Under the pieces are notes generated by a model that saw only the letters and a program-made list of their open reading frames with translations, had not been told where the DNA came from and searched no databases. Position numbers and translations under genes: made by a program. Below are positions 16,837 to 57,263 of a stretch of DNA of 64,000 nucleotides, piece by piece. Origin of the DNA: Bacillus sp. ISL-41 (lineage in GTDB: Bacteria > Bacillota > Bacilli > Bacillales > Cytobacillaceae); NCBI RefSeq assembly GCF_018613235.1, contig NZ_JAGGQP010000032.1:1-64000 (forward strand). The letters run 5' to 3'. Numbering within the stretch: position 1 is the first letter of the stretch; every line of letters begins with the position of its first letter.

Positions 16837-17031
16837 TCTCCACCTCAATGTTTTGGAATAGCGTGTCCTTCTATTATACGTGCCGGGATGGCGAGAATAC
16901 AATAATATGATTGCTGGAGATTTGTAATGAGAAGAACGAGTGAAGATATAAAGCATGACTGAACCTGGATTGCTCGAATTCGGACATCGAGCATGTTTAC
17001 ACGCTGCATTGTTTGAACTTGATTCTACTTT

Positions 17032-17113
17032 TGACAGCTTTTCATCGTTTTCTGTGAAACCTGTCTGAACTTAATGTGTCATCTACAGCCTTGAGCCGAA
17101 CACAACCCGTTGT
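17032..17113. repeat. Degenerate 52 bp repeat units of the TGACAG family
   Basis: A unit at 17032 has TTGACAGCTT and, 29 bp later, CTGTCTGAAC, exactly the spacing of the large array at 28805-29428. A second, decayed unit begins 52 bp downstream at 17084 (TACAGCCTTGAG). It lies in the 409 bp gap between pyk and fxsA. No gene is seen there. Confidence 0.6.
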
Positions 17114-17196
17114 GGTAACTTCGAAGGGACATTTCAGGCATGATCAGATTCGGTTTTGTCTGCCCATAAGGTGCCTTCATTAATCCTCATAAATAA

Positions 17197-17224
17197 AGCG
17201 TGAAATCAAAGTTGATTTCACGCT
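17197..17224 (-). terminator. Terminator after pyk
   Basis: AGCGTGAAATCAA/TTGATTTCACGCT, a 13 bp perfect stem with a 2 nt loop, followed on the minus strand by TTATTTAT. It lies 21 bp beyond the pyk stop. Confidence 0.75.
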
Positions 17225-17245
17225 AAATTTGGAACTTATCTTAGA

Positions 17246-19006
17246 TTATAAAACGCTGGCATGTCCTTTGTAGATGACACCTCTTGCAGAGTCAACGGTA
17301 ATTTCCTGGCCATCTTTAAATAGTTGCATGGCGTTTTCTACGCCAACGATGACTGGGATTCCAAGATTTAATCCGACTACTGCTGCGTGGCTTGTCAAGC
17401 CGCCTTCTTGCGTGATCAAGGCGCTGCACTTCTCAAGTGCCGGCACCATTTCACGGTCTGAACCGATTGTTACCAGGATGCTGCCTTGCTTTACCTTGCT
17501 GATCGCTTCTTGTGCATCCTTCGCGACAACTACTCTTCCGTATGCAGATTTACGTCCGATACCTTGAGCTTTTGCAAGGATATCGCCTACCACATGAATC
17601 TTCATCAGGTTCGTTGTGCCTGCTTCTCCAACCGGGACTCCTGCAGTGATGACGACGAGGTCACCGTGGGAAACAAGGCCGCTGTTCACACTTTCTTCTA
17701 CTGCGATTGCGAGCATTTCGTCTGTTGTTTCTGCTTTCTGGCCGAGTTGTGGATAAACTCCCCATACAAGAGCCAGGCGGCGAAGAACATGGTCATTCGA
17801 AGTCGCTGCAATGATTGGAGCCTTCGGGCGGTATTTGGAGATCATACGTGCTGTATGGCCGCTTTCAGTCGGCGTGATGATTGCATTGACTTCAAGATTC
17901 AACGCTGTATGTGCAACCGATTGTCCGATAGCATCCGTGATATTGTGCTCTGTGTCTTTGCTGCGAGCTGATAATAGCTCTTTATGATCAAGCGCTTGTT
18001 CTGCACGTGATGCGATGTTATGCATTGTCTGTACAGCTTCAACTGGATATTGTCCTGCAGCTGTTTCGCCGGAAAGCATGATGGCATCTGTACCGTCAAA
18101 GATCGCGTTTGCTACGTCACTTGCTTCCGCGCGTGTAGGACGAGGGTTGCGCTGCATAGAATCAAGCATCTGTGTTGCTGTGATAACAGGCTTTCCAAGT
18201 GTGTTGCACTTCTTGATCAGTTCTTTTTGCACAAGTGGTACTTCTTCAGCCGGGATTTCAACACCAAGGTCTCCACGGGCAACCATCAGGCCATCAGAAA
18301 CTTCAAGAATTTCATTGATGTTGTCGACGCCTTCCTGGTTTTCAATTTTCGGGATGATTTGGATATGAGTTCCGTTGTTTTCCTCAAGAAGCTGGCGGAT
18401 TTCCAACACGTCTGTCGCGCGGCGAACAAAAGATGCTGCGATAAAATCTACGCCTTGCTCGATACCGAAAAGAATATCCTTTGCGTCTTTTTCCGTGATT
18501 CCTGGCAAGTTAACAGATACACCAGGGACATTGACGCCTTTTTTATTCTTAAGTGTTCCGCTGTTGAGAACTCTGGTTTTAATTTCATTGCTGGACTTGT
18601 CGATGCTGATGACTTCCAGCCCGATCAATCCGTCATCAAGGAGAACCTTCGCCCCTGGATGTACATCATCAATCAACTGGTCATAAGTTACAGAAAACTT
18701 TTCTGCAGTACCTAGAACTTCTGTCATTGAAACGATGCACTCCTGGCCAGTCGTCAGCTCGATCGCTCCGTTTTCCATATCGTTCGTACGGATTTCCGGG
18801 CCTTTTGTATCAAGAAGAATACCAACATTTTTCCCTGTTTTACTTGCAGCTTCTCTGATATTCTTGATACGTGCTGCGTGTTCCTCGTGATTTCCGTGTG
18901 AAAAATTAAGACGGGAAACATTCATACCTGCTTCAATCAATTGAACCAATTTGTCTACACTTTCACTAGCGGGACCAATTGTACAAACAATTTTAGTTTT
19001 GCGCAT
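17246..19006 (-). CDS. pyk: Pyruvate kinase with C-terminal PEP-utilising domain
   Basis: Final glycolytic step, converting phosphoenolpyruvate and ADP to pyruvate and ATP. The 586 aa protein has the catalytic barrel ([45 protein letters not shown]) and the usual C domain. It also has the extra C-terminal phosphohistidine-like domain typical of Bacillus and Geobacillus enzymes ([21 protein letters not shown]). ATG at 19006 is chosen over the TTG at 19015 because the AGGAGG sits against that TTG. It is co-transcribed with pfkA (32 bp gap). Confidence 0.97.
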
Positions 19007-19038
19007 AGCTTGCAACCTCCTGGTTTACTGTAAAGAGA

Positions 19039-20007
<969 letters not shown>

Positions 20008-20270
20008 TCATTCAGTATGTACTGTACCAAAAACTAATCACTGTAGTATCCTGTTATTAGCTTATCTTATTATGAACAGAATACCCGGGAATATTTCTAA
20101 AATACCACGTAGAATACCGTATCTCAACTGAATCCTCAATATTGACAATAAGACGGAATTATCACGTAATTGCAAGCGCTTCAATAGGGTTTTTAGCCCA
20201 GCTGCCTCCGCATTGTTGACTGATTTTAGGTACTTATCCGAGTTGTCAAGCTTTAATTTTATAAAATAAA

Positions 20271-20302
20271 AAATAAAACGTGCAGATTGGCACGTTTTAT
20301 TT
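20271..20302 (-). terminator. Terminator overlapping the accA stop codon
   Basis: AAATAAAACGTGC/GCACGTTTTATTT, 13 bp perfect stem, 6 nt loop, followed on the minus strand by TTTTATTT. The accA TAA lies inside the upstream arm. Confidence 0.82.
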
Positions 20303-21274
20303 TACCCCTATAAATTCAGTTGGAAACGAAAACTCTCCAATTCGTTTGTATTTTTCATAGCGCTGGCTCAGCAGTGTTTCCTCATCCAGCACAAGCAATT
20401 CGGACATCGAATCTTTTAAAACTTTATCCATATACTTCGCCTGCTGCTTCAGATCTTTATGTGCTCCGCCTTTTACTTCGGGAATGATTTCATCAATGAT
20501 CCCAAGCCCCTTCAGATCCGGAGCTGTAATCTTCATCGTTTCGGCGGCTTTTTTCGCCAATGAAGAATCCTTCCAGAGAATGGCCGCTGCGCCTTCAGGT
20601 GAAATAACGGAGTAGGTCGAGTTTTCCAGCATGTGAATATAATTACCGACTCCAAGAGCCAGTGCTCCGCCGCTTCCGCCTTCGCCGATGACAACACAGA
20701 TTACCGGAACCGTAAGTCCAGCCATCTCGAATAGATTTCGGGCAATCGCTTCACTTTGCCCGCGCTCTTCTGCGGCTTTTCCGGGATAAGCTCCCTTCGT
20801 ATCGATGAAGCAGATGATTGGGCGCCTGAATTTTTCAGCTTGCTTCATCAAACGGAGAGCTTTTCTGTATCCTTCTGGATGTGGCATGCCAAAATTCCTG
20901 CGGATATTTTCCTTTGTATCCTTACCGCGCTGATGGCCAATGACTGTCACCGGATAGCCATGGAACTTCGCAATACCGCCAACGATAGCTTCATCATCTC
21001 CAAATGTCCTGTCACCATGACATTCGAAGAAATCGGTAAATAACAAAGAAATATATTCAAGTGTAGTAGGACGGCTCGGGTGACGGGCAATCTGCACCCT
21101 GTCCCATGGTTTCATGTTTTCGTAAATTTCCGATTCGAGCTTTTGGAGCCTCGCTTCAAGTTTATCTATTTCAGAAGTGAGATCGACATCCGCTGTCTTG
21201 GTAAATTCCTTTAGCTCGCTGATTTTTTTTCTTAGTTCCAACACCGGTTTCTCAAATTCTAGTTCTCCTGCCAT
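20297..21274 (-). CDS. accA: Acetyl-CoA carboxylase carboxyltransferase subunit alpha
   Basis: With AccD it transfers carboxyl from biotin to acetyl-CoA, giving malonyl-CoA for fatty acid synthesis. The 325 aa protein shows the crotonase-like fold with [38 protein letters not shown] and [16 protein letters not shown] (oxyanion and CoA site). Its start overlaps the accD end by 16 bp, so the two subunits are coupled. A leading coiled-coil (residues 1-60) is typical. Confidence 0.97.
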
Positions 21275-22137
21275 TCGAATGTCCCTCCTGGCTGATGGAT
21301 TTCAAGTATTCCCGCAATTTTCTCCTTCAGTTCTGTCCTCGGAATCACGGCATCTAGCTGACCATGCTTAAGCAAGAATTCCGACGTCTGGAAGTCTTCT
21401 GGAAGTTCTTCGCGGATTGTTTGTTCAATGATTCTTCGTCCTGCGAATCCGATCAAAGCTCCTGGTTCTGCAAGATTGTAATCCCCCAATGAGGCAAAGC
21501 TCGCGGAAACTCCTCCTGTTGTTGGGTGAGTCATGATCGAGATGATTAACCCGCCATTATCACTGAACCTTTTCAATGCTACGCTTGTTTTGGCCATTTG
21601 CATCAAGCTGAGGACACCTTCTTGCATCCTTGCTCCGCCCGATGCGGTAAAAATGATGAATGGAATGGATAATTCATCAGCTTTTTCAATAGCCCTCGTA
21701 ATCTTTTCGCCTACGACGGAACCCATGCTTCCCATCCTGAAAGTCGCATCCATAATCGCAATCGCGACATCACAGCCATTCACACTGCCTACCCCGGTTA
21801 CTACCGCTTCATTTAATCCTGTTTTTTCCCTGTCCTTTTCGAGCTTTTCCTCATATTCAGGGAAGCCCAATGGATTGCCTGAGACCATCTCGCGGTCCAG
21901 CTCGCGGAAGCTTCCTGCATCAAGGAAGCTATCAATCCGTTCTGCTGAATTCATCTGATGATGGTAACCGCATTGGAAACACACCTTACAATTTTTATTC
22001 AGTTCTTTTGTATACATGATTTTCTTGCAGTTCGGGCATTTCGTCATGATTCCTTCAGGAACATCCTGCTTCGCTGCTTCAGAAGGAATTGTCGCGTACT
22101 TTTTCTTTTTCGTTTTCGTAAAAAGCTCCTTAAGCAA
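21259..22137 (-). CDS. accD: Acetyl-CoA carboxylase carboxyltransferase subunit beta
   Basis: Beta subunit of 292 aa, with an N-terminal four-Cys zinc finger (CPNCKK ... [11 protein letters not shown]), then the carboxyltransferase domain ([40 protein letters not shown]). The start codon is TTG, preceded by GGAGGGGG. It is the first gene of accDA. A 14 bp perfect palindrome, TCCTAAATTTAGGA, lies 41 bp upstream at 22178-22191 and may be an operator. Confidence 0.96.
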
Positions 22138-22177
22138 GTTAAAACCCCCTCCGAATAATACTAGTTGTTTTGTAATA

Positions 22178-22191
22178 TCCTAAATTTAGGA
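22178..22191. promoter_or_regulatory. Perfect palindrome upstream of accD
   Basis: TCCTAAATTTAGGA is a 14 bp perfect dyad in the accDA leader. It does not match the FapR consensus well. A binding protein is unknown; it could also be chance in AT-rich DNA. Confidence 0.3.
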
Positions 22192-22277
22192 ACAAAGCAC
22201 TAAGTGGCCAGACCGCTATTTCAAAAAAGAAAGAGAGGCTGCCCTCCAGGCATCATAGGCATGTCCACAAGTATATA

Positions 22278-22301
22278 ACATCCTTTCATCAAAGGATGTT
22301 A
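22278..22301 (-). terminator. Hairpin after the FadR-type gene
   Basis: AACATCCTTT/AAAGGATGTT stem with a 4 nt loop, followed on the minus strand by ATATACTTG. The T run is poor, so termination is uncertain. Confidence 0.45.
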
Positions 22302-22311
22302 CTTCCTGTCG

Positions 22312-22935
22312 TCATTCTGTCGACATTTTCCGCAGCTTGCGATACCTTTCCAGGATCAGATCTCCTCTTTTTGTCTCAAGTGAGTCTGCCAGTTTGTGAT
22401 AATCTTCTTTTTCAGCATGTGATACTTTCAGCTGAAGTGCATTATAATAGTCATTCAGTATATACCAGATTCGATAAAAAAGATGATTGTCGGCAAGTTC
22501 GGCAATTTTCCTGAAAAATTCCTCGTCCTCAAAATTATGGTCATCTATCCAGACCTTTAATCTTCTGATTTCGTCTTCCTGTATCTTTTCAGCTGCCAGG
22601 TATAGACAATCGACCTCAATCATATTTTTTGTTTCGACAACATCATCTTTTGCTTTTTCATCCTGCAGGATAAAGGTGCTTAATAATTGGACAAGCTGGT
22701 TGCCGCGGAAGTCCCTGATGAATGTCCCTTCTCCCCTTCTCGTCTCAATCAAGCCGAGAAGCTCTAGGGCACGCAATGCCTCGCGAACGGAGGAGCGCCC
22801 GGCATTCAGGCGCTCTGAAAGTTCACGTTCGGATGGAATTTTATCCCCTGGCTTTAAGCCGTCTTTATTAATCATTTCCCTTAGCTGCCTGACGATTTCC
22901 ACATATACCTTTGTGCTTTTTTCAGGCTGTGCCAC
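22312..22935 (-). CDS. FadR-subfamily GntR transcriptional regulator
   Basis: Regulator of about 207 aa. The N-terminal winged helix-turn-helix is VYVEIVRQLREMI ... IPSERELSERLNAGRSSVRE ... GLIETRRGEGTFIRDF; an all-helical FCD-like effector domain follows. GTG at 22935 lies 7 bp after the malic enzyme stop, with AAAGGTGAG overlapping that stop; a TTG at 22959 would add 8 residues and overlap malic enzyme by 17 bp. Sandwiched between malic enzyme and accDA, it may respond to an organic acid or acyl-CoA and control one of these, but the ligand is not known. Confidence 0.88.
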   Translation of the reverse strand: MAQPEKSTKVYVEIVRQLREMINKDGLKPGDKIPSERELSERLNAGRSSVREALRALELLGLIETRRGEGTFIRDFRGNQLVQLLSTFILQDEKAKDDVVETKNMIEVDCLYLAAEKIQEDEIRRLKVWIDDHNFEDEEFFRKIAELADNHLFYRIWYILNDYYNALQLKVSHAEKEDYHKLADSLETKRGDLILERYRKLRKMSTE

Positions 22936-22942
22936 TAAGAGA

Positions 22943-24181
22943 TCACTCACCTTTTCCAATTAATGCAAGACGCATGGTGCGCTCTTTGACTTCTTCCGGA
23001 TCCACTTTAATTCGTGCGACGCCGGTTTCCATCGCCGCATTCGCAACAGCCGCCGCAACAGCAGGTGCCACACGCGGGTCAAACGGGCCTGGAATGACGT
23101 AATCACTTGAAAGCTCGGATTCCTCAATCAGGCTGGCGATCGCATTAACTGCTGCTACCTTCATCTTTTCATTAATATGGGTAGCCCTGGCATCCAATGC
23201 TCCGCGGAAGATTCCCGGGAATGCAAGAACATTATTCACCTGGTTAGGGAAGTCGGATCGGCCTGTACCTATGACTGCTGCTCCAGCTGCCTTGGCTTCA
23301 TCAGGCATGATTTCCGGCACTGGATTTGCCATAGCAAAAATAACAGGATCATTATTCATTGTCTGGACCATTTCAGAAGTCAGTGCCCCAGCGACAGAAA
23401 CTCCGATAAATACATCTGCTCCTTTGATGGCATCCGCGAGTGATCCTTCAACATTGTCACGGTTCGTGAACTTAGCCACTTCGTCCTTGATCGCATTCAT
23501 GCCGTTAGGGCGGCCTTCATAAATCGCACCCTTTGTATCGCACATGATGATGTCCCGGACTCCGTAAGAATAGAGAAGCTTAATGATCGCAATTCCAGCA
23601 GCTCCTGCTCCGTTCGCGACCACTTTAATTTCATTCATTTTTTTGCCGACAATTTTCAAGGCATTTACGAGACCAGCCACGGTGACAATCGCAGTTCCGT
23701 GCTGATCATCATGGAATACCGGAATATTCGTTTCTTTTTTCAAGCGTTCTTCTATAGCGAAACAGTTTGGAGCAGCGATGTCTTCCAGGTTGACTCCGCC
23801 AAAAGTCGGCTCAAGCAGCTTTACAGTCTCAACAATCTTATCAACATCTGTTGTATTCAAACAAATAGGAAAGGCATCGACTCCGGCAAAGCTCTTAAAA
23901 AGAACAGCTTTTCCTTCCATTACTGGAAGTGCGGCTTCAGGACCGATATTCCCCAGGCCCAATACGGCTGTGCCATCAGAAACAACGGCTACCATATTGC
24001 CCTTCATTGTATAATCAAAAACAGTTTCCGGCTTATCATATATTTCCTTGCAAGGCTCCGCCACCCCTGGCGAATAAGCAAGGCTTAAGTCCCTTGCATT
24101 CTTTACAGGCACTTTTGATTTTGACTCTAATTTCCCTTTGTTTACACGGTGCATGTGCAAAGCTTCTTCACGTAAAGTCAA
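22943..24181 (-). CDS. ytsJ: NAD(P)-dependent malic enzyme (YtsJ-like)
   Basis: Decarboxylates malate to pyruvate and gives NADPH or NADH. The 412 aa protein has the malic N-domain (LAYSPGVAEPCKEI, KMEGKAVLFK-like region) and an NAD-binding domain (VVANGAGAAGIAIIKLLYSYG, CDTKGAIYEGR). The catalytic metal-binding stretch is VFHDDQHGTAIV. The start codon is TTG with AAGGAGTGG about 9 nt before it. YtsJ is assumed from location next to dnaE and accDA; cofactor preference cannot be read from the sequence. It heads a unit with the FadR-type regulator. Confidence 0.94.
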   Translation of the reverse strand: MTLREEALHMHRVNKGKLESKSKVPVKNARDLSLAYSPGVAEPCKEIYDKPETVFDYTMKGNMVAVVSDGTAVLGLGNIGPEAALPVMEGKAVLFKSFAGVDAFPICLNTTDVDKIVETVKLLEPTFGGVNLEDIAAPNCFAIEERLKKETNIPVFHDDQHGTAIVTVAGLVNALKIVGKKMNEIKVVANGAGAAGIAIIKLLYSYGVRDIIMCDTKGAIYEGRPNGMNAIKDEVAKFTNRDNVEGSLADAIKGADVFIGVSVAGALTSEMVQTMNNDPVIFAMANPVPEIMPDEAKAAGAAVIGTGRSDFPNQVNNVLAFPGIFRGALDARATHINEKMKVAAVNAIASLIEESELSSDYVIPGPFDPRVAPAVAAAVANAAMETGVARIKVDPEEVKERTMRLALIGKGE

Positions 24182-28804: not shown

Positions 28805-29428
28805 TGACAGCTTAGGAGCGTTTTGCATGATAGCTGTCACAATCCCGGATTTTTCTTGACAGCTTTAGGCTTTGAACCCTGAAACCTGTCACAATAACTG
28901 CGTTTTCTTGACAGCTTTGGGCTTTGAATCCTGAAACCTGTCACAATAATCACGTTTTCTTGACAGCTTTGAGCCTTGAACCCTGAAACCTGTCACAATA
29001 ATCACGTTTTCTTGACAGCTTTGGGCCTTGAACCCTGAAACCTGTCACAATAATCACGTTTTCTTGACAGCTTTGAGCTTTGAACCCTAAAACCTGTCAC
29101 AATAACTGCGTTTTCTTGACAGCTTCGGGCTTTGAATCCTGAAACCTGTCACAATAACTGCGTTTTCTTGACAGCTTTGGGCCTTGAACCCTGAAACCTG
29201 TCACAATAATCACGTTTTCTTGACAGCTTTGAGCTTTGAACCCTGAAACCTGTCACAATAATTACGTTTTCTTGACAGCTTTGAGCTTTGAACCCTGAAA
29301 CCTGTCACAATAATCACGTTTTCCTGACAGCTTTTAAGCTTGCCACGCATACCCTGACACGATTCCAGCTTAATTATGACAGCTTTAGAGCCTTTCGCAT
29401 AAAACCTGTCACGATTCCGGCTTACCTT
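28805..29428. repeat. Tandem array of twelve 52 bp units (TGACAG family)
   Basis: Units begin TGACAGCTT at 28805, 28857, 28909, 28961, 29013, 29065, 29117, 29169, 29221, 29273, 29325 and 29377, an exact 52 bp step throughout. Position 30 of each unit starts CTGTCAC, so every unit carries a TGACAG-N23-CTGTCA inverted repeat, followed by AATAA and a variable (T/A)CACG or CTGCG tract. Middle units are nearly identical; the first and last two are decayed. There is no open frame through it because TGA recurs. The array occupies most of the 830 bp between ytrI and the gene at 29567. Confidence 0.97.
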
Positions 29429-31351: not shown

Positions 31352-31360
31352 AGCACAACA

Positions 31361-31477
31361 AAAAGCGCAAGCGCCTTGTTCAGCCCCGACAAGCGCTGGA
31401 GGGCCGACCGGTGAAGTCCTTCTTTGACTTCATTGGGCGGAACGAAGCGACTCGAGGGGCTAGGCGCTGGAGCTGGA
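31361..31477 (+). repeat. BOX-like dispersed hairpin element, full copy
   Basis: Complete copy of the 94-216 element, from AAAAGCGCAAGCGCC to GGCGCTGGAGCTGGA, with GCGCTGGAG present near both ends as a direct repeat. It lies between ytpI and its likely terminator. Confidence 0.88.
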
Positions 31478-31538
31478 TTAAGAAAACTGCATGAAGTTAT
31501 CCACAACTAAATAATTTTATAATTTCCTAAGAAACAAC

Positions 31539-32927: not shown

Positions 32928-33059
32928 GACTTTCACCCTTTTTAATAATTTTCCGTACAAAGTAGTTCTATCCATTATTATTATAAGGTTTATAAGGGTT
33001 GGATTCAATTTAATTAGGAATCGAGGAATTTGCTTCTTAAAATGCGCTTATAAATCAGG

Positions 33060-33250
33060 CTGTTGATTTTCGTTCCAGGCGCTTCGCTTTCCGCGGGGAA
33101 GAATAATGAAAAATCCCAAAGGCCGGATTTTTCAAAAACCAATTCTTCCTTGCAGTCGGGGAGCCTCCTCGGCGCTTTATGCGCCTGCGGGGTCTCCCCA
33201 TGACTTGCTGATCCCGCAGGAGTCTACGCGCCTTCCACTACAATCAACAG
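33060..33250. repeat. MITE-like element, short copy without outer ends
   Basis: Core CTGTTGATT ... AATCAACAG shared with 3796-4050, about 85 percent alike by eye but lacking the 63 bp extra segment and the TTTAACAGAGCC outer ends. It fills most of the 381 bp between ytoI and the small membrane protein gene; no gene is seen. Confidence 0.78.
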
Positions 33251-33294
33251 GATGTAAAAACAACATTTAGCATACACATCCTATAAAAATAAAA

Positions 33295-35800: not shown

Positions 35801-35914
35801 TGTACGAAATTTTTTTATTATAGCGAGTTTCACTTTTATATAGCGAGTTTTTATCTTTTATAGCGACTTTCACCTTTTTATAGCGAGTTTCGACTTTTTA
35901 TAGCGAGTTGGAAA
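35801..35914. repeat. Array of 20 bp repeats (TAGCGAGTTTC)
   Basis: Units beginning TAGCGAGTTT or TAGCGACTTT start at 35821, 35841, 35861, 35881 and 35901, exactly 20 bp apart, each ending in a CACTTTTATA-like AT tract. A decayed unit precedes at 35801, and looser variants run from about 35749. It lies between the convergent peptidase and queF genes and fills that 299 bp gap with the two terminators. Confidence 0.88.
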
Positions 35915-35940
35915 ATATCCGCGTTTTTTTCCAGTAAAAA

Positions 35941-45948: not shown

Positions 45949-45973
45949 CTTGTATGCTTCCCCCTTGCTATTT

Positions 45974-46077
45974 TGACAGCTTTTCTTGTGTTTGAGTCAA
46001 ACCTGTCTTAAGTTGGCTCTTCTTTTGACAGCTTTTCTCGTTTCCCACTCAAACTTGTCTGAATTGAAGCCGCTGCT
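45974..46077. repeat. Two 52 bp units of the TGACAG family
   Basis: TTTTGACAGC occurs at 45972-45981 and 46024-46033, 52 bp apart. In each unit (A)CCTGTCT or CTTGTCT follows at position 30, the same spacing as at 28805-29428. They lie directly upstream of the acetyltransferase gene. Confidence 0.8.
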
Positions 46078-46713: not shown

Positions 46714-46717
46714 AACC

Positions 46718-47554: not shown

Positions 47555-47599
47555 TGAAAAACCTCCAGCATATCTGAATTTTCTTCCAGTATAGCACAA

Positions 47600-47646
47600 G
47601 AAAAGCAGAAGCGCCTTGGTCAGCCCCGACAAGCGCTGGAGCTTGA
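47600..47646 (+). repeat. Shortened BOX-like element
   Basis: Begins AGAAAAGCAGAAGCGCC and reads AAGCGCTGGAG directly into CTTGAC. In the full copies GCGCTGGAG occurs near both ends, so the middle was probably lost by recombination between these direct repeats. It lies upstream of the ecsC-like gene. Confidence 0.75.
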
Positions 47647-49198: not shown

Positions 49199-50192
49199 AT
49201 TGCTGTTCCGTTTTATTATCTTTAAACCATTGATCGATTTTATTCAGCATCCTGTTCACGGCTGGGCCGTCAGATAGCTTTGGAAGCTCAGCAAGGAGTG
49301 CTTGTTTTGGCGCTTTCACTTCTGCACCATTCTTTTGCAGAATAAGGATACTTTTAGCTGCCTGCTTGTTTTTAAACAATGAAGCCGGAAGCTGCAAAAT
49401 GCCCTGGACAATTAGATGGTTTTTAATGAACTCATGAAGCATTGGGGCTTGTTCACTTTCAAAAAGACCATTAGGTATCATGAAAAACAAATATCCGCCT
49501 TCTTTTACATGCTTCGTACTTTGCTCAATGAACATGTGATGAGAGTATGTATGGCCTTCTTTTGCTTTTACCTCATATTGCTCAGCTCGAAGGTCATTCG
49601 GATAGTAGCCGACTGGAAGGTCACAAATGACTGCTTCCGCCGGATCAACGAATAATGGTTCAAGGCTGTCTTGATTGAAAAACTCGACCGGATGCTTTTG
49701 TAAATTAGCATTTACGAAAGCCAGCCGGATCAGCAAGTCATCAATTTCAACACCGACAGACTCGATTACCTTATCATTCTGCTGGTTCAATACCGTCGCC
49801 AGCAGGTTCCCAGTTCCAACCGCAGGGTCAAGCAGCCTAAATGACTTCTTGTCGACAAACTTATTAACCAGGTAGCCAATGAACATGCCGACAGAATCAG
49901 GTGTCATTTGATGGTTCGGTTGAACGTGCTCCTTCATTCCTTTCAAAATTGCAAGCTGGAAACCTTTGCGGATTTCTTCTTTGCTAAAAGAATCAAGGTT
50001 AGTCTCCTTATATACTTTTTCAAGACGTTTTGTTGTGACTTCGTTCAGTTCGTCCTGGAGCACTGTGCCCTGGAACATGTTTTCCCCGCTTTCAGCCAGC
50101 GCCTCTAAGTATGTACATGATAACTCTTCTTTTAAAATATCTGCAGTTGTATTGAATGCAGTAAATAATTGTTCGACCGGAGTCATACTCAC
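49197..50192 (-). CDS. ytxK: Class I SAM-dependent DNA methyltransferase-like protein (YtxK)
   Basis: Protein of about 331 aa resembling the N6-adenine methyltransferase subunit of type I restriction systems. The SAM site is FRLLDPAVGTGNLLATVL; the catalytic NPPY-like motif reads VICDLPVGYYP instead, so activity on adenine is doubtful. No restriction or specificity subunit is nearby. GTG at 50192 has GGAGG 7 nt upstream; ATG at 50186 is an alternative that gives 329 aa. The 50315-50460 repeats lie just upstream. Confidence 0.88.
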   Translation of the reverse strand: MSMTPVEQLFTAFNTTADILKEELSCTYLEALAESGENMFQGTVLQDELNEVTTKRLEKVYKETNLDSFSKEEIRKGFQLAILKGMKEHVQPNHQMTPDSVGMFIGYLVNKFVDKKSFRLLDPAVGTGNLLATVLNQQNDKVIESVGVEIDDLLIRLAFVNANLQKHPVEFFNQDSLEPLFVDPAEAVICDLPVGYYPNDLRAEQYEVKAKEGHTYSHHMFIEQSTKHVKEGGYLFFMIPNGLFESEQAPMLHEFIKNHLIVQGILQLPASLFKNKQAAKSILILQKNGAEVKAPKQALLAELPKLSDGPAVNRMLNKIDQWFKDNKTEQQ

Positions 50193-50314
50193 TTTTCTTC
50201 CTCCTGATTTGAATAGATATTTATATATTTTAGCCGTGTTTCGCCTTGTGTACAAGGCATATGGCTGGAAAGGAAATGGAGAGGATTCAGGTGCTAAATT
50301 CCATGCTGATATTC

Positions 50315-50460
50315 TATCGGACATTTTCACTGTTTTCGTTCTTCTTTTGTCCGATAGAGCACTTTTATCGGACACTTTCTCCATTCTCCGACCTCTGTTT
50401 GTCCAATAGAGCCCTCCTATCGGACATTTTCACTGCTTTCGCCCTTCTGTTTGTCCGATA
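50315..50460. repeat. Array of three 51-52 bp units (TATCGGACA family)
   Basis: TATCGGACA begins units at 50315, 50366 and 50418 (51 and 52 bp steps). In each, TGTCCGATA or TGTCCAATA follows 33-34 bp later, giving an inverted repeat with a T/C-rich centre. The sequence differs from the 28.8 kb array but has the same period and dyad plan. It lies between the tpx terminator and the ytxK start. Confidence 0.88.
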
Positions 50461-50479
50461 ACAGTTATTTTCAAAGTAA

Positions 50480-50510
50480 AACAAGCCGCAGTTCCTTTCT
50501 GCGGCTTGTT
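50480..50510 (-). terminator. Terminator after tpx
   Basis: AACAAGCCGCAG/CTGCGGCTTGTT, 12 bp perfect stem with a 7 nt loop, then TTTACTTTG on the minus strand. Confidence 0.82.
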
Positions 50511-50525
50511 CCAATGTTGTGTGTA

Positions 50526-51026
50526 TTAGTTTGCTTGCTGTGCAGCTTCTACTGCTGCTTCGTAATCCGGATGGTCTGTTGCTTCGCTTACATACTCAAC
50601 ATATGTTACTTTGTCGTTTGAATCGACAACAAATACTGCGCGAGCGAGCAGACGTAGTTCCTTGATTGCTACTCCGAAAGCTTCTCCGAATGAAAGCTCG
50701 CGATGGTCAGATAGAGTCTGGACATTATCGATTCCAGCCGCTCCGCACCAGCGCTTTTGAGCGAATGGAAGGTCTACGCTGACTGTCAGAATTTTAACGT
50801 TATCAAGGTTGGCAGCTTCCTCATTGAAACGGCGAGTCTGCGCGTCACAAACTCCTGTGTCTAGTGAAGGAACAACACTGATCAAACGTACTTGTCCTTT
50901 TGAATCCTGAAGTGTCACTTCGGAAAGATCGTTTGCAAGCACTTTGAAATCTGGTGCCTGGTCTCCTACCTTTACTTCATTTCCTAGCAATGTAACTGGG
51001 TTCCCCTTAAATGTAACAGATGCCAT
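50526..51026 (-). CDS. tpx: Thiol peroxidase (Tpx)
   Basis: Atypical 2-Cys peroxiredoxin of 166 aa that reduces hydroperoxides with thioredoxin. Peroxidatic Cys60 is in [15 protein letters not shown] and resolving Cys94 in [18 protein letters not shown] lies before the ATG. It is single, between ytfJ and ytxK, as in B. subtilis. Confidence 0.97.
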
Positions 51027-51151
51027 ACCTGCTCATCCTCCTTGTCCATTATATGTACAGTGTTAATATATCTTTTAAAGAATTTTTTTGCAATTATTTT
51101 AAATAAAGCGCAAAATCACTTCGCCCCGGTCAGTCTCCTGACACAAGCAAA

Positions 51152-51176
51152 CTGCCTCTTCATTTTGAAAAGGCAG
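51152..51176 (-). terminator. Hairpin after ytfI-ytfJ
   Basis: CTGCCTCTTCA pairs with TGAAAAGGCAG across a 3 nt loop; only TTT follows on the minus strand, so termination is moderate. It is 8 bp beyond the ytfJ stop. Confidence 0.6.
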
Positions 51177-51183
51177 CCTAGTC

Positions 51184-51699
51184 CTAAATATCAAGATCAG
51201 TTTTCGGGCCATTATAGTCATTTTGCTTTTGATCCTTGTTCTGACTGCTATCCTGGCTGTTCTGGCTGTTCTGGTCTTTCTTTGACATCATTTGCTGGAT
51301 TTTTTCCACTGCCTGAGGGGCAAGGTCCAGAATCTTTTCATACAAATGTGTATTTTCATCAAGATGAAGCATTTTTACACCCTTGGAGTTGACGATTAAG
51401 AAGGCAATTGGCGTGATTGACACACCGCCGCCGCTTCCTCCTCCGAATGGGTGCTGGGCTCCTCCGGATTGTCCCCCAGAGCCGCCTGATCCACCAGATC
51501 CGCCAGATCCTCCCTTCGAGCCTTCCAGAACAAATTCACTTCCACCGGCCGCAAAACCGAAACCTACCTTTGAAACTGTCAGGATTACACTTCCATCCGG
51601 TGTTTCTACGGGGTCCCCAATGATTGTGTTGACATCAATCATTTCTTTCAAGCTTTCCATGGCAGTTGTCATTAGTCCTTGAATTGGATGGTCGGACAT
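51184..51699 (-). CDS. ytfJ: Sporulation protein YtfJ (GerW)
   Basis: Protein of 171 aa of the GerW family, needed for normal germination in B. subtilis. The conserved N-terminal part is HPIQGLMTTAMESLKEMIDV; a GSGGSGG-type linker (about residues 63-95) is followed by VSITPIAFLIVNSKGVKMLHL and a Gln/Asn/Asp-rich tail. It is read 18 bp after ytfI on the same strand. The Gly-rich linker is longer than in many homologues. Confidence 0.92.
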   Translation of the reverse strand: MSDHPIQGLMTTAMESLKEMIDVNTIIGDPVETPDGSVILTVSKVGFGFAAGGSEFVLEGSKGGSGGSGGSGGSGGQSGGAQHPFGGGSGGGVSITPIAFLIVNSKGVKMLHLDENTHLYEKILDLAPQAVEKIQQMMSKKDQNSQNSQDSSQNKDQKQNDYNGPKTDLDI

Positions 51700-51717
51700 T
51701 CCTGTTTCCTCCTTATT

Positions 51718-52413
51718 TTAGACAGAATTAGAATTATCACCGGAAAGAGCGGATAATGGCTTTGATTTAAATTCAGGCCAGCCGCCTCTCCAATATTTAA
51801 CCAGCTTTATTCCTGCTAAAATAGCATGCCCGACTCTGACTTGAATCATACATTTAAAACTAGTAATTGATACGGTTTGCTGGAAGCTCGGTGTGATCGT
51901 CATGACAGGCATCTCTTTCATTTTCATATAGTTGCTCAGAAGCCCGATCACTCCGCCTTTGACTGCCCAAAAGGCACCTGTAATGACTCCTGTGGCTGCT
52001 GCATCCGATACTCCAACCATGGTGTGCCATTCAATATTCCTGATGGTCACCTTCTTTAAAAAAAGCCGGATGATTTTATGGAGGCCTGCGATATGGGTGA
52101 TCAGCTGCTTGAAATCATGCAGGCTATCAAGTAAATCCTTTTTATCAACCTGAGTGGTTTTTTGTTGTTTCATATTTTCATCGGGACCTGTTTTGACTTT
52201 TTGTTCAGCAATGATAGTGGGAGAATTATCATCGATTTTAACAACCGGCACCTCTATCTTGAACTTGATTAAACCGCTCCATGCTTTAATCGTTACCTTA
52301 AAATGGTCATTATCATTGCCGTGGAAATAATCTAAGAAAATCTTAACTTTTGTAAAAAGGATTATAAGTACAAGCACCGTGAGAAGCAGTATGGCAAGCA
52401 GCACCCATTTCAT
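51718..52413 (-). CDS. ytfI: DUF2953 membrane protein (YtfI)
   Basis: Protein of 231 aa with an N-terminal membrane helix (WVLLAILLLTVLVLIILFT) and a soluble domain of unknown function. The ATG at 52413 has GGAGGACG right before it; a TTG codon 12 bp upstream is rejected because it would overlap this site. It is the first gene of ytfI-ytfJ, probably expressed in sporulation. No enzymatic motif is visible. Confidence 0.88.
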   Translation of the reverse strand: MKWVLLAILLLTVLVLIILFTKVKIFLDYFHGNDNDHFKVTIKAWSGLIKFKIEVPVVKIDDNSPTIIAEQKVKTGPDENMKQQKTTQVDKKDLLDSLHDFKQLITHIAGLHKIIRLFLKKVTIRNIEWHTMVGVSDAAATGVITGAFWAVKGGVIGLLSNYMKMKEMPVMTITPSFQQTVSITSFKCMIQVRVGHAILAGIKLVKYWRGGWPEFKSKPLSALSGDNSNSV

Positions 52414-52465
52414 CGTCCTCCACAACCTTTCAGCTTATTATTATCAACAAAAAGGCAAAAAAATA

Positions 52466-52483
52466 AACCTGCCGCAGCAGGTT
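52466..52483 (-). terminator. Terminator after yteJ
   Basis: AACCTGC/GCAGGTT stem with a 4 nt loop, followed on the minus strand by TATTTTTTTGC. Confidence 0.8.
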
Positions 52484-52487
52484 CATT

Positions 52488-53126
52488 CTAACGTGGTTCA
52501 TATATGACTGTTGTATCTGCGAACAGATCATGCAGCCCCTGTTTCTTTTTCGTAAAAGCAACGACCACATATAAAATCATAATGGTCGCAGATATGAAAC
52601 GGCCAATCCATTCGCGAAAAATAACGGTTCCCCAGGAAAGTCCCTTGCCGTCCAGTTCGACTACTTTCAAACCAAAGACCATTTTTCCGAGAGTTTGGCC
52701 GGAAAATTTAGTCATTAACACAAAGTATAGATAGAAGACAATTGCCGTAGCAATGGCCATCGGTGAAAAAATTCCATCTTCGATCAAGGATACATCCAGT
52801 GCCCGAAACACTGGATTGATGATCATCCGGTTGATGCTCCCGATTACAATCAAGTCAAGCAAATACGCCCAAAAACGTGTCCAGAAACCCGCATAGAGAC
52901 CGGCATATATATGATTCTCCGGTTCAATCCCGCCTTTTATATAAATATCAGCTTCCGGAATGTCCTGAATTTGTATATTGCCAGAATCAGACTGGAGTGC
53001 TGGACGGTCGGTTTCCGATTGATAACCCGATCTGTTTTCAGAGGGTTCAGAACTATTCATGATATCGTTACCATCTTCCGTTTGAGATGGTACATTTTCC
53101 CGATCTTTAAAGTCATCCGAATTCAT
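52488..53126 (-). CDS. yteJ: RDD family membrane protein (YteJ)
   Basis: Protein of 212 aa with a hydrophilic Ser/Asp/Glu-rich N terminus (about 1-70) and then the RDD domain with three membrane helices (FWTRFWAYLLDLIVIGS, ATAIVFYLYFVLM, FISATIMILYVVVAF). The RDD signature is RFWAYLLD. The function is unknown. It is 12 bp after sppA, with its AAGGAGGGGG inside the sppA end, so the pair is co-translated. Confidence 0.9.
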   Translation of the reverse strand: MNSDDFKDRENVPSQTEDGNDIMNSSEPSENRSGYQSETDRPALQSDSGNIQIQDIPEADIYIKGGIEPENHIYAGLYAGFWTRFWAYLLDLIVIGSINRMIINPVFRALDVSLIEDGIFSPMAIATAIVFYLYFVLMTKFSGQTLGKMVFGLKVVELDGKGLSWGTVIFREWIGRFISATIMILYVVVAFTKKKQGLHDLFADTTVIYEPR

Positions 53127-53138
53127 TTTTCCCCCTCC

Positions 53139-54149
53139 TTATTCCGCATATAAATACATGAGGCGCGGAGAATTAGGCTGGGACAATAGCTTCATTAAGC
53201 CTGCCATTTCTGCGTCTTTCCCCATTATTTTTTGGGCACCCATGCTGAAAAATGAACCAAAGCCCATGCTTTCTGTGTATTTAACGACAGTAGCGTCGCC
53301 AAGGTTTTGGTCATTCCTGACACTGTCGATGACATCCTCAAGATAACCAAATCCATCGATCAAATTCAGCTGCTTTGCCTGGCGTCCATCATAAATCCGG
53401 CCATCCGCAATTTCCTTGACCCGTGCAACAGACATGTCGCGTCCTTCCGAAATGACTTTAACGAATCCCTCGTATGAGTTGTCAATCATCGATTGGAGGA
53501 TTTCACGCTCCTCCTCTGTCATCGGTCTGGATGGGCTCATGATATCCTTGTATGGCCCGCTTTTGATTGTTGTGAATTCGACCCCATACTTTTCTGCAAG
53601 ACCGGCATAATTGACTCCCTGCATGATGACACCCAGCGATCCAGTAAGCGTCTCAGGGCTGGCAAAAATTTTATCTGCCGGAGCAGACACATAATAACCG
53701 CCAGAAGCGGCCATCGACCCCATCGATACATAAACCGGTTTTTTCGTTTCCTTCTGGATTTCCTTGATCTTGTCATGGATTTGCGCACTTTCCACGACGC
53801 CGCCGCCAGGAGAGTTCACTTGCAGGATGATCGCCTTGACATCATCTGCTTCCTTGACATAATCAAGCTGTTCCATGAACGCCCTATGATTATAGAGTGG
53901 ACTTTCAAAAAATGATTCAGCATCACCAGTATCCTGGATCACTCCATTGATGGACAATACTGCTATTTTTGAGAGCATGTCACCTTCTTCGATAATTTCT
54001 TCCGCAAACATTTCTTCCGATACTGCAAACATATCTGTAAAAGCACTTTCTGCGTCACTGAAAGCGAATGTAGACAGAAGATTTATAACTGTTGATGCAA
54101 TGAATAATCCGACGGCAATCCCTAAAGCCGCCCACCTTTTACCATTCAT
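53139..54149 (-). CDS. sppA: Signal peptide peptidase SppA
   Basis: Membrane-bound protease of 336 aa that degrades cleaved signal peptides. An N-terminal helix (about 8-28) anchors it. The catalytic Ser149 is in GSMAASGGYYVSAP and the general-base Lys201 in KSGPYKDIMSP, a Ser-Lys dyad on the crotonase fold. In B. subtilis SppA also confers lantibiotic resistance. It heads sppA-yteJ and is divergent from the NAD kinase gene. Confidence 0.96.
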   Translation of the reverse strand: MNGKRWAALGIAVGLFIASTVINLLSTFAFSDAESAFTDMFAVSEEMFAEEIIEEGDMLSKIAVLSINGVIQDTGDAESFFESPLYNHRAFMEQLDYVKEADDVKAIILQVNSPGGGVVESAQIHDKIKEIQKETKKPVYVSMGSMAASGGYYVSAPADKIFASPETLTGSLGVIMQGVNYAGLAEKYGVEFTTIKSGPYKDIMSPSRPMTEEEREILQSMIDNSYEGFVKVISEGRDMSVARVKEIADGRIYDGRQAKQLNLIDGFGYLEDVIDSVRNDQNLGDATVVKYTESMGFGSFFSMGAQKIMGKDAEMAGLMKLLSQPNSPRLMYLYAE

Positions 54150-54292
54150 ATTGAAGCCCCCTTGTAAGTTTCTGTACTTTCACAACCTTATGAAAAAATG
54201 ATAAACTGATGTCAATAACATTTATTTTAGCAAAAGTTTTTAAAAGTGGGTAAAAATATGGAAGAATTACATAATGTTTGGAGGAATTTATA

Positions 54293-55093
54293 ATGCCAGA
54301 TCGCCGCAATATTTATTTTCACCATACGCCAGACACAACCATGCTGGAAAAAGTTGAGCCTTTATATGAGCTGGCTCGCCGCTATGATTTCAATATCGTG
54401 AATGACCATCGTACCGCAAATATCATCGTAAGCATTGGTGATGACGGTACCTTCCTTCAGGCTGTCAGAAAGACAGGCTTCCGAGATGATTGTCTGTATG
54501 CCGGCATTTCGATCACCGGCTCTCTGAATATGTACTGTGATTTCCATCTTGAAGACACAGATAAAATGATTGAAGCAATCACAAATGCCCAAATCGAGGT
54601 CAGGCGCTACCCGACCATCGAGGTAACAATCGATGAGGAAACAACATTCGGCTGCCTGAATGAGTTCAGCGTCCGTTCAGCGATCATCAAAGCTTTTGTG
54701 ATGGATGTATTCATCGACGACAAGCATTTTGAAACATTCCGTGGAGACGGGATGATCGTCGCAACTCCTACAGGAAGTACAGCGTACAACAAGTCGGTCA
54801 ATGGCGCAGTCGTCGACCCGCTGCTCCCTTGCATGCAGGTGAGCGAGCTCGCTTCAGTCAACAACAACCATTACCGTACACTCGGCTCATCTTTTATCCT
54901 TAGCGGTGACCGCAAGCTTACCTTCAAGGTTGCCCAGGACGGCAATGATTATCCAATCATGGGAATGGACAACGAAGCGGTGAGCATCCAGCATGTCGAG
55001 AAATTCGATGTAAAGCTGAGCAACAAAATCATCAAGACTGTTAAACTCAAGGACAACTCTTTCTGGGAAAAAGTGAAGAGGAGCTTTTTATAA
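54293..55093 (+). CDS. nadK: NAD kinase (NadK2 type, YtdI/PpnKB-like)
   Basis: Phosphorylates NAD to NADP. The 266 aa protein has the signature SIGDDGTFLQA in place of the more usual GGDGT, and the conserved CLNEFSVR and FRGDGMIVATPTGSTAY. The GD variant is shared, as I recall, by other Bacillus NadK2 proteins. GGAGG is 8 nt before the ATG at 54293. It lies next to sppA, as in B. subtilis. Confidence 0.94.
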   Translation: MPDRRNIYFHHTPDTTMLEKVEPLYELARRYDFNIVNDHRTANIIVSIGDDGTFLQAVRKTGFRDDCLYAGISITGSLNMYCDFHLEDTDKMIEAITNAQIEVRRYPTIEVTIDEETTFGCLNEFSVRSAIIKAFVMDVFIDDKHFETFRGDGMIVATPTGSTAYNKSVNGAVVDPLLPCMQVSELASVNNNHYRTLGSSFILSGDRKLTFKVAQDGNDYPIMGMDNEAVSIQHVEKFDVKLSNKIIKTVKLKDNSFWEKVKRSFL

Positions 55094-55113
55094 GCGGCAA
55101 GTCTTAGAGGCCA

Positions 55114-55143
55114 AAAAAGCCCAGAGTGAACTCTGGGCTTTTT
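55114..55143 (+). terminator. Bidirectional terminator after nadK
   Basis: AAAAAGCCCAGAG/CTCTGGGCTTTTT, 13 bp perfect stem with a 4 nt loop. It also follows the 67 aa gene on the minus strand. Confidence 0.9.
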
Positions 55144-55181
55144 AAGAATGGACCTTTTTAGACTTCTAACAACAAATACTA

Positions 55182-55385
55182 TCACTCAATTTTATTGATA
55201 TTGATTCTTTTCTGAGCCTGCCAGGTATTGATCAAGCTTGGAACTCCTGCTAATAAACTCACCATAAAACTCCACATCACATATCTCCATTCTCCTGTGA
55301 AAACAGAGACACCAAGAAAGAAAACAAGCTGTCCAACAAGCGCAAACCAAGTAGCAATCCAGGCAAACCTTAAATTCTCCTTCAT
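55182..55385 (-). CDS. Small membrane protein of 67 aa
   Basis: Two membrane helices (IATWFALVGQLVFFLGVSV and VMWSFMVSLLAGVPSLIN) and a basic C-terminal end (QAQKRININK). Unrecognised. GGGAGTGG before the ATG and a good terminator on either side suggest that it is real. Confidence 0.7.
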   Translation of the reverse strand: MKENLRFAWIATWFALVGQLVFFLGVSVFTGEWRYVMWSFMVSLLAGVPSLINTWQAQKRININKIE

Positions 55386-55468
55386 TTCACCACTCCCGAC
55401 TCAGCAATCTATTCTGTTAAGAATATTTTAACATATTTTCCCTTAATTTGTATCTACACAATGAGAAA

Positions 55469-55494
55469 AGAGCTGCAGAATCGTCCGCAGCTCT
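55469..55494 (-). terminator. Terminator after rarD
   Basis: AGAGCTGC/GCAGCTCT stem with a 10 nt loop, followed on the minus strand by TTTTCTC. Confidence 0.72.
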
Positions 55495-55499
55495 CTTTT

Positions 55500-56435
55500 T
55501 TACATAGGCATTCCTTTTTCTTTTTTCCACTTAACCGTCAATGCTGCGGCCATCTTAGTCCTTGATAAGGAGTAGAGAATCAATGCCGACCAGATAAAGG
55601 TAAAGGCCAGCAGGTGGACGGACGAGAATGTTTCGTGATAGACGAAAATCCCTAGGATGAGCGTCAATGTTGGAGCAATATACTGCAGGATACCCAGTGT
55701 TGCGAGCGGAATCCTTTGCGCTCCTTTCGCGAAAAATAGCAAGGGAACTGCCGTAGCCGCCCCTGCACCTGCAAGCAGCAGGGTAGTCGACATTGAACCC
55801 GCAAACAGGGAGTTCGTTCCCTGGATCATAAGGTAACCAATGTAGATAGCTGCGAGCGGCATAACGACCAGTGTTTCGAGTGCGAGACCTACAGCAGAAT
55901 CCACCTTTATCAGTTTTTTAGCCAATCCGTACAAACCAAAGGAGATTGCAAGTGTTAAAGCGATCCATGGGAATTGTCCGTAGGAAATTGTCATGATCAG
56001 CACACCGATTCCTGCAAGCGCAAACGATATATATTGCAGCAAGGAAAGACGTTCCTTCAGGAATACCATCCCTAGCAGGACGCTTACGAGCGGATTGATA
56101 TAATAACCTAGGCTTGCTTCAATCATCTGGTCTGTATTGACTGCCCAAATATACATGAACCAGTTAATACTGATTAGCATCGATGCCACAGCCAGGGCAA
56201 CGAATTGCTTTTTATTTTGGGCCAACCCAAGTAATGTCCCAGTGAAAAGTCCCCATTTCTTATTAAGGACTAGAATGACAGCAATGAAGAAAAACGACCA
56301 GAACACACGGTTAGCCAGGATTTCATCAGCATTTACATGATTCAATAGCTTCCAATAAATAGGAAGGACACCCCATAATATATAAGAAAAAGCTGCGTAT
56401 AAAACTCCAGCTTGTTGTTCGGTCCTTTTATCCAT
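55500..56435 (-). CDS. rarD: RarD/EamA family transporter
   Basis: Polytopic inner membrane protein of 311 aa of the drug/metabolite transporter superfamily, with ten predicted helices in two EamA repeats (about 11-140 and 150-300). The N-terminal signature is AAFSYILWGVLPIYWKLL. The substrate is unknown (the family name comes from chloramphenicol sensitivity). The 56.5-57.3 kb repeat array starts 101 bp upstream of its start. Confidence 0.9.
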   Translation of the reverse strand: MDKRTEQQAGVLYAAFSYILWGVLPIYWKLLNHVNADEILANRVFWSFFFIAVILVLNKKWGLFTGTLLGLAQNKKQFVALAVASMLISINWFMYIWAVNTDQMIEASLGYYINPLVSVLLGMVFLKERLSLLQYISFALAGIGVLIMTISYGQFPWIALTLAISFGLYGLAKKLIKVDSAVGLALETLVVMPLAAIYIGYLMIQGTNSLFAGSMSTTLLLAGAGAATAVPLLFFAKGAQRIPLATLGILQYIAPTLTLILGIFVYHETFSSVHLLAFTFIWSALILYSLSRTKMAAALTVKWKKEKGMPM

Positions 56436-56535
56436 CCGAACAGCCCCCTAATCTTTCTAGACTCGAAATAATATCATTATAAAGGCGGAAGCTAGGACTG
56501 ACAATCATTTTTTGGCGTTAATTGCAGACAAAATT

Positions 56536-57263
56536 TGCGGACATGGCTTCTTCTCGTGTTTCCATAAGGATGATGGATGACGCTTTTTGCTGGTTCCGCT
56601 TCTTTTGGTGTCTCCATAAGGGCAATGGATGTCGCTTTTTTCTGACCCTGCGCCTTTTGGTGTCTCCATAAGGGGTGTGGATGACGCTTTTTGCTGGTTC
56701 CGCTTCTTTTTGTGTCTCCATAAGGGCAATGGATGACGCTTTTTGCTGGTTCCGCTTCTTTTGGTGTCTCCATAAGGGCAATGGATGACGCTTTTTGCTG
56801 GTTCCGCTTCTTTTGGTGTCTCCATAAGGACAATGGATGTCGCTTTTTGCTGGTTCCGCTTCTTTTTGTGTCTCCATAAGGGCAATGGATGCCGCTTTTT
56901 GCTGGTTCCGCTTCTTTTTGTGTCTCCATAAGGGCAATGGATGTCGCTTTTTGCTGGTTCCGCTTCTTTTTGTGTCTCTATAAGGGCAATGGATGACGCT
57001 TTTTGCTGGTTCCGCTTCTTTTTGTGTCTCCATAAGGGCAATGGATGACGCTTTTTGCTGGTTCCGCTTCTTTTTGTGTCTCCATAAGGGCAATGGATGC
57101 CGCTTTTTGCTGGTTCCGCTTCTTTTTGTGTCTCCATAAGGGCAATGGATGCCGCTTTTTGCTGGTTCCGCTTCTTTTGGTGTCTCCATAAGGGTAATGG
57201 ATGCCGCTTTTTGCTGGTTCCGCTTCTTTTTGTGTCTCCATAAGGGCAATGGATGCCGCTTTT
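56536..57263. repeat. Tandem array of fourteen 52 bp units (CCATAAGGGCAATGG family)
   Basis: CCATAAGG occurs at 56562, 56614, 56666, 56718, 56770, 56822, 56874, 56926, 56978 (one base changed), 57030, 57082, 57134, 57186 and 57238, always 52 bp apart. Within each unit GTCTCCAT is followed by ATGG and GAC/GTC/GCC, an imperfect dyad, then TTTTTGCTGGTTCCGCTTCT. Unit 3 is diverged and the left edge decays. The array fills most of the 855 bp gap upstream of rarD. No minus-strand frame has a stop inside it. Confidence 0.97.

Follow-up and report, generated by a model that had tools for sequence, protein, structure and literature searches.

We analyzed a 64,000-nucleotide stretch (the window) covering positions 1 to 64,000 of contig NZ_JAGGQP010000032.1 of Bacillus sp. 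ISL-41 (GCF_018613235.1), a Mesobacillus close to M. selenatarsenatis as judged by its best ackA relatives, in which several gaps between genes hold tandem arrays with a period of 52 bp (Table 1). We scanned the window at lags of 12-300 bp, requiring 70% identity over 40 bp; this lag scan found the period and its multiples in four places, the third delimited as 50332-50461, and otherwise only periods of 20/40/60 at 35807-35920 and of 122 at 1-229. TRF agreed with the lag scan for the long arrays and additionally reported short or low-copy repeats. An earlier note on the window had listed 52-bp arrays at five loci. Four of these stand, those at 46.0 and 50.3 kb with the period confirmed and a small copy number of ~2-3, while the fifth, at 16980-17200 between pyk and fxsA, came down to a single decayed TGACAG unit. 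All four arrays are intergenic, as had been claimed, and the terminator said to lie upstream was recognizable by eye at three of them as a terminator-like hairpin with a T-run, after moaB, tpx and the HesB-like gene. The 28.8-kb array is flanked by two plus-strand open reading frames (ORFs) without a Pfam match, which we take to be the ytrI and 107-aa genes of the earlier note. Flanking genes encode MoaB-type (PF00994) and GNAT (PF00583) proteins at 46.0 kb, Redoxin (tpx) and YtxK-like (PF21106) proteins at 50.3 kb and Fe-S_biosyn (HesB-like) and EamA (rarD-like) proteins at 56.5 kb. The gene names used for the window (ytrI, moaB, tpx, ytxK, rarD and others) follow the earlier note or common usage and are presumptive.

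Table 1. Positions, copy numbers and settings of repeat features in the window, all of them assigned to the minus strand
Feature	Position	Copies or description	Setting
Lone decayed CTGTCA..TGACAG unit	17010..17074	no tandem array	gap pyk / fxsA
52-bp array, CTGTCA..TGACAG family	28821..29424	~10 good units and a decayed tail	
20-bp array, TCGCTATAAAA on minus strand	35807..35920	other published size class; lag scan, TRF	
CTGTCA..TGACAG family	45963..46068	~2 units	gap moaB / GNAT acetyltransferase gene
TGTCCGATA..TATCGGACA family	50297..50461	~2.8 units	gap tpx terminator / ytxK
Core GTC-A(bulge)-TCCAT-7 nt-ATGGA-GAC	56534..57276	~14 units	gap HesB-like / rarD-like genes

The preference of the source genome for period 52 is not in doubt. 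From its assembly (57 contigs, 4.62 Mb), we scanned a sample of 1.13 Mb made up of the window, the initial 20 kb of 40 contigs (entire contigs where these were shorter) and larger stretches of four others; contig ends are richer in repeats and the array density in this sample is, therefore, inflated. The lag scan returned 83 tandem arrays, 37 of them with a period of 51-53. Outside longer ORFs lay 64 arrays, which included the identical 37, and the next non-coding period classes were 20-21 (5 arrays) and 41-42 (5 arrays). Three 2-mer shuffles of the sample yielded 0 arrays, compared with the 37 real ones at period 51-53. The earlier note had named in advance the lack of a genome-wide excess as grounds for calling the shared period a coincidence; in the roughly one quarter of the genome scanned, the excess is present and shuffles give none.

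Dyads had been reported for every unit. In an ungapped search, those of the TGACAG and TATCGGACA arrays were significant against shuffled units (p 0.005-0.045), whereas the CCATAAGGGCAATGG array gave no significant dyad in this search (p 0.52) and its unit was predicted to form a hairpin with a single bulge (GTC, the bulged base, TCCAT, a 7-base loop, ATGGA and GAC). On the minus strand of this 14-unit array, several long overlapping ORFs run across 56492-57427; they are probably not genes and arise because the unit seems, by eye, to lack stops on that strand.

Aligning array consensus units by dyad centre (some centres being misplaced) in the orientation of the GC-skew leading strand brought different families into register. 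The resulting skeleton runs from an A-rich flank through GTC at -12..-10, an inner arm, a 7-base centre, a second inner arm and GAC or GCC to a purine-rich linker. Among 37 families (74 arrays from the source genome and relatives, clustered at 68% identity), G occupies -12 in 31, T -11 in 28 and C -10 in 24; this set excludes arrays that deviate from period 52, are even-centred or have fewer than two copies, and the CCAT array of the window is thus absent from it. The window alone holds three 52-bp families of different sequence within one genome. These had been described as sharing no sequence likeness, a statement we revise, as two of them share one ungapped skeleton and the third fits with a one-base bulge. 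In an ungapped alignment of 44 two-unit sequences (A1), taken from 64 thinned candidates, standard pairs including G-U filled 80.3% of stem cells, compared with 55.6% after shuffling and 31-42% after sliding, and 219 stem cells were altered on both sides, compared with 76 in the shuffled control. Because our own dyad centres had been chosen for pairing, we also tested published consensus repeats. Of all 27 in the table of Subirana and Messeguer 2021 (PMC8161180), 16 (one with a 6-base centre) form at least 7 of 10 pairs in the skeleton geometry, in comparison to 9% of shuffles. The best explanation for these patterns would be that most or all 52-bp arrays analyzed here form one superfamily.

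Measured from core to core, a distance of exactly 52 occurred 388 times in the source-genome sample and 119 times in 80 relatives. The sample additionally contained 11 spacings at 51, 2 at 53 and a few near multiples, and the period is under constraint across genomes. The core seldom stands alone, with 151 isolated matches in 1.40 Mb compared with ~115 expected by chance. The same core recurs at 62 (61-63) bp in a family of the class with genomes of 2.1-2.5 Mb, where it was seen in three genera, one of them by a single match; relative to the 52-bp form, its linker is, therefore, one helical turn longer. The two spacing modes would fit turn-wise phasing, which is suggestive but not proof, and lend some support to the earlier proposal of helical phasing over five turns.

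The arrays are also oriented. In the source genome, the pattern AGCTGTC-N19-GACAGGTT (at most one mismatch) matched 166 times on the plus and 129 times on the minus strand, its reversed form gave 0 matches there and, among the matches listed (11 contigs), every contig carried matches on one strand only. Two half-circle arcs fit 78 of the 79 arrays among the matches listed for four single-contig genomes (G072, G076, G078 and G306), compared with a mean of 12.5-15.8 of 17-22 when strands were shuffled. Local GC skew agrees with this assignment at 18 of 20 arrays from G072, G078 and G306, the others being L238 (skew 0.016) and L243. Across the source genome and related loci, 98 arrays of period 51-53 were compared with GC skew, and in 92 the purine-rich strand coincided with the leading strand, a count that excludes the coding arrays in L072 and L075 and relies on the GC skew of short stretches. 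The purine fraction of the leading strand was 0.61 in arrays and 0.52 in other intergenic DNA. Genomes G351, G393, G418, G292, G261 and G339 stand outside these polarity counts.

At four loci, array orientation is kept although both neighbours are opposed: the 28.8-kb array of the window, with units that follow the leading strand and lie on the minus strand and with both flanking ORFs on the plus strand, and L082, L175 and L177, with GC skew weak beside L082 and near zero at L177. The neighbours of the 20 arrays from G072, G078 and G306 were both co-directional with replication in 10 cases and mixed in 10; therefore, only the four opposed-neighbour loci separate transcription from replication. 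Array density showed no gradient from origin to terminus in these three genomes, where the distribution is uniform. Orientation that follows the replichore is a trait of recognition arrays of the SRS, KOPS or Ter type, and the 52-bp arrays possess it. Separately, three 20-bp arrays with TCGCTATAAAA (window 35807-35920; L146 18347-18423; L163 13138-13247) all point the same way with respect to the leading strand given by GC skew (3/3), and the 20-21-nt size class may, thus, be polar too.

Variation among copies of the same array shows that the dyad is constrained. In 37 arrays with at least four full copies and GT at -12/-11, the minor-base fraction was 0.034 in the stem, 0.129 in the centre and 0.101 in the linker (p 5e-11, stem versus linker); positions 14-18, outside the stem, were also low in variation. 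In arrays selected by these two criteria, unpaired stem bases were more changeable than paired bases at an equal position (pooled odds ratio 2.12, compared with 0.94-1.33 in slid controls), with the contrast reversed at k=4, where unpaired bases were not more variable. Of 101 single changes at unpaired stem places, 44 re-established pairing, compared with 23-33% in slid controls. Stem mismatches across families (sums for k=4-13) comprised 13 G.T (expected ~30) and 12 A.C (expected ~38), and those inside arrays 13 G.T and 11 A.C. There was no excess of G.T over A.C in stems on either strand and, because both are about equally rare, the constraint on the dyad looks as though it acts on DNA rather than on an RNA stem of either strand. 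Folding as single-stranded DNA was strong for the TGTCCGATA unit (z -6.8), barely beyond shuffled sequence for the CTGTCA unit (z -1.9 / -1.4 on the two strands) and modest for the CCAT unit (z -1.6 / -2.4). Folding strength varies by family, and the match between half-sites, therefore, seems more important than how stable the hairpin is.

To define the distribution, we searched genomes of at least 95% completeness with a two-unit model (R1), scoring 10-15 candidates per genome, so that match numbers are floors; the draws overlap. Matches occurred in at least 96 of 299 genomes (at least 42 of 112 genera) of the order draw, in at least 20 of 348 genomes of the class draw, 9 of those in the order, and in at least 4 of 398 genomes of the phylum draw, three of them in the own family and one marginal. 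With these frequencies, the repeat class is confined, which bears on the earlier question of whether it is limited to one clade. Model matches at class level in L259 and L271-L273 showed no tandem array by lag scan and were not counted as support. In one genus, L271 (G690), L272 (G769) and G784 gave single weak model matches (72-83 nt, E 2e-5 to 3e-4), and two fetched stretches contained no tandem array. Plasmid and phage records, searched with the 28.8-kb array only, gave no match, and one exact pattern hit 37 viral contigs with one match each, which we take as chance.

Individual intergenic sites turn over between relatives. The moaB gap contains 7-11 units of the family present in the window in L001, L002, L004 and L006 but another family in L008. 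In the tpx/ytxK gap, units are visible by eye in the window and, to varying degree, in L001-L006, with none visible in L007 and L009-L018. In Cytobacillus (L031 and L032), the same gap appears by eye to carry repeats of the 20-21-nt type (GCGGATAAA) where Mesobacillus has the 52-bp array. The window additionally contains two dispersed repeat families. One, around AAGCGCAAGCGCCT..CAGCCCCGACAAGCG, is present at 1-228, 31359-31491 and 47599-47641 in copies 87-93% identical; the other (AGGCTGTTGATTTTCGTTCCAGGCGCTTC) occurs at 3777-4059, 10042-10098 and 33041-33269, mostly as pieces 84-97% identical and one at 78%.

Three gene families were examined as candidates linked to the arrays in 30 array-bearing and 20 array-free genomes, the latter defined by the lack of an R1 match at E 0.001. 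Y1 transposase (PF01797) was present in 28/30 and 16/20 and absent from the array-rich G321 and G444. SbcD (TIGR00619) matched in 50/50 genomes, exceeding the cut-off in 26/30 and 17/20. Reverse transcriptase (PF00078) was found in 18/30 and 10/20 and had no match in the source genome; it is, therefore, not needed for arrays. The gene link that the earlier note had suggested looking for was thus not borne out by any of the three.

We favor, with a probability of roughly 0.4, a reading in which the arrays would be helically phased, polar sites for a putative oligomerizing protein, because this would account for the polarity, the duplex-type constraint, the conserved flanks, the near absence of single units and the turn-wise spacing. 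Each unit would be a polar site with an A-rich flank, a dyad of ~25-29 bp and a purine-rich linker that sets the period of five helical turns. The dyad would comprise two half-sites in inverted orientation, with GTC / GAC conserved at their outer ends, freely covarying inner arms and a variable 7-bp centre. The putative oligomerizing, probably dimeric protein would contact duplex units along a single helix face, with the tandem layout reflecting cooperative binding and the orientation reflecting a complex that cooperates with the fork or with a DNA translocase, be it in replication, in segregation or in organizing the nucleoid. The earlier suggestion of a multimeric DNA binder remains the preferred one. 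More broadly, the data suggest that the arrays have a role as DNA while the chromosome is replicated or organized. It is possible, and we propose it tentatively, that Bacilli have a hitherto unrecognized chromosome-wide system of dozens of phased, replication-oriented dyad arrays, read as duplex by a putative oligomerizing protein in concert with the fork or a translocase, in which unit length would equal whole helix turns, five in most genomes and six in one family.

Several observations weigh against this protein-site reading. Inner arm sequences vary freely between families of one genome, which is awkward for one sequence-reading protein, and no candidate gene was found among PF01797, TIGR00619 and PF00078 in the 30 array-bearing and 20 array-free genomes. 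Odd spacings of ~56 (G530, one match) and of 48 and 65 (G763) exist, and, with only two spacing modes, a difference of one helical turn could be luck at an estimated ~1 in 5 to 1 in 10. The replication arcs were fitted to the data, and in G076 and G306 1,000 rounds of strand shuffling gave, at best, a fit equal to the observed one; one array (G306, 1.98 Mb; L243) is reversed, a real reversal by local GC skew. Regarding the dyad, 11 of the 27 published families fall below 7/10 pairs. Dyad centres and A1 sequences were furthermore selected for good pairing, which inflates the pairing values, with slid and shuffled controls offsetting this in part.

The main rival, somewhat less probable, is a selfish DNA-hairpin satellite, the units of which would fold on the single-stranded lagging-strand template at the fork and expand by slippage or template switching. 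Single-stranded fragments would anneal at forks of other loci, keeping polarity, and the 52-bp length would be inherited rather than selected. Stem covariation without conservation of inner-arm sequence, replication polarity and the even spread from origin to terminus in G072, G078 and G306 agree with such a satellite, as do the occurrence of one family at many loci of a genome, the presence of different families in one intergenic site of relatives, the varying copy number between species at one site and the strong single-stranded fold of the TGTCCGATA unit. However, folding of CTGTCA, the most frequent family, and of CCAT surpasses that of shuffled sequence by a small margin only, a T.C mismatch is kept in GGTCAC families (by eye), constraint extends to flanks outside the stem and lone dispersed copies hardly exceed chance; moreover, SbcD, a subunit of a hairpin nuclease, exceeds the cut-off about as often in array-free as in array-bearing genomes.

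It is unlikely that the repeats work as RNA, that is, as transcribed hairpin arrays regulating or sequestering other RNAs or Hfq, as put forward in the main text of PMC8161180. PMC8625621 does describe the 52-nt repeats of B. coagulans as transcribed and present in RNA-seq data. The purine-rich strand is, furthermore, usually the sense strand of a neighbour, with a co-directional upstream ORF in 16 of 19 replication-oriented arrays. Against an RNA role stand the mismatch pattern, with G.T not exceeding A.C on either strand, an Rfam search of the window with 0 matches at gathering scores, the retained orientation at the four opposed-neighbour loci (skew near zero at one) and the position of three window arrays after terminators (by eye).

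Hairpins combined with replication polarity are an outcome of single-strand transposition. Non-autonomous hairpins mobilized by a Y1 (HUH) transposase, as the Gram-positive equivalent of REP/RAYT, would share these features, but we consider them very improbable given the similar frequencies of PF01797 in array-bearing and array-free genomes, its absence from G321 and G444 and the few isolated units. Neutral tandem duplications of coincidentally common length would suit the quick copy-number turnover and are hardly credible in view of the genome-wide 52-bp excess, the shared skeleton and the polarity.

Either of the two leading readings would have wider meaning. As polar protein sites, the arrays would represent a new layer of chromosome organization in Bacilli; as a fork-coupled satellite, they would exemplify repeats that spread without an enzyme of their own. 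The published puzzle of a constant size without conservation gains structure in the form of one dyad core, one polarity and one spacing rule.

Among known systems, SRS/SpoIIIE, KOPS/FtsK and Ter/RTP rely on skewed segregation or replication motifs with an orientation that follows the replichore. In contrast to these scattered short words, the elements described here are tandem arrays of 52-bp dyads and are not known to have a binding protein. REP and BIME elements with RAYT are intergenic hairpin repeats that are sometimes tandem; the 52-bp arrays differ from them in having hardly any single copies above chance and no dependence on a Y1 transposase.

The closest relatives are already named. 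Contrary to the earlier view that no named system has these properties, the arrays analyzed here belong to the ‘52-nt tandem repeats’ of Bacillus. In the main text and tables of PMC8161180, 51-53-nt repeats are reported for ~30% of Bacillus species among 176 genomes, beside a second class of 20-21-nt repeats, and the near relative B. selenatarsenatis is tabulated with 82 tandem repeats. Period, non-coding location, species-specific sequences, patchy distribution and the coexisting 20-21-nt class agree with our data. The published criterion of at least four repeats within 800 nt includes the arrays at 28.8 and 56.5 kb, while the arrays at 46.0 kb and at 50.3 kb comprise 2-3 units. The same text reports no sequence conservation between families, notes that short motifs and their reverse often co-occur in one repeat and proposes a polymerizing nucleoid protein or a small RNA; its main text uses none of the terms palindrome, hairpin or intergenic. 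The shared skeleton, covariation, replication polarity and the 61-63-bp form are seen here and not in that text. A full-text literature search, which mostly misses subscription papers, found no follow-up on the orientation or shared core of 52-nt repeats. As far as this search reached, the replication orientation, the DNA-type mismatch pattern, the within-array dyad constraint and the 61-63-bp form are new. The text of PMC8161180 also draws a comparison to CRISPR arrays, which resemble the 52-bp arrays in their tandem alternation of dyad and linker. In the 52-bp arrays, however, the linker is itself repeated in place of a unique spacer, and a genome carries dozens of such arrays.

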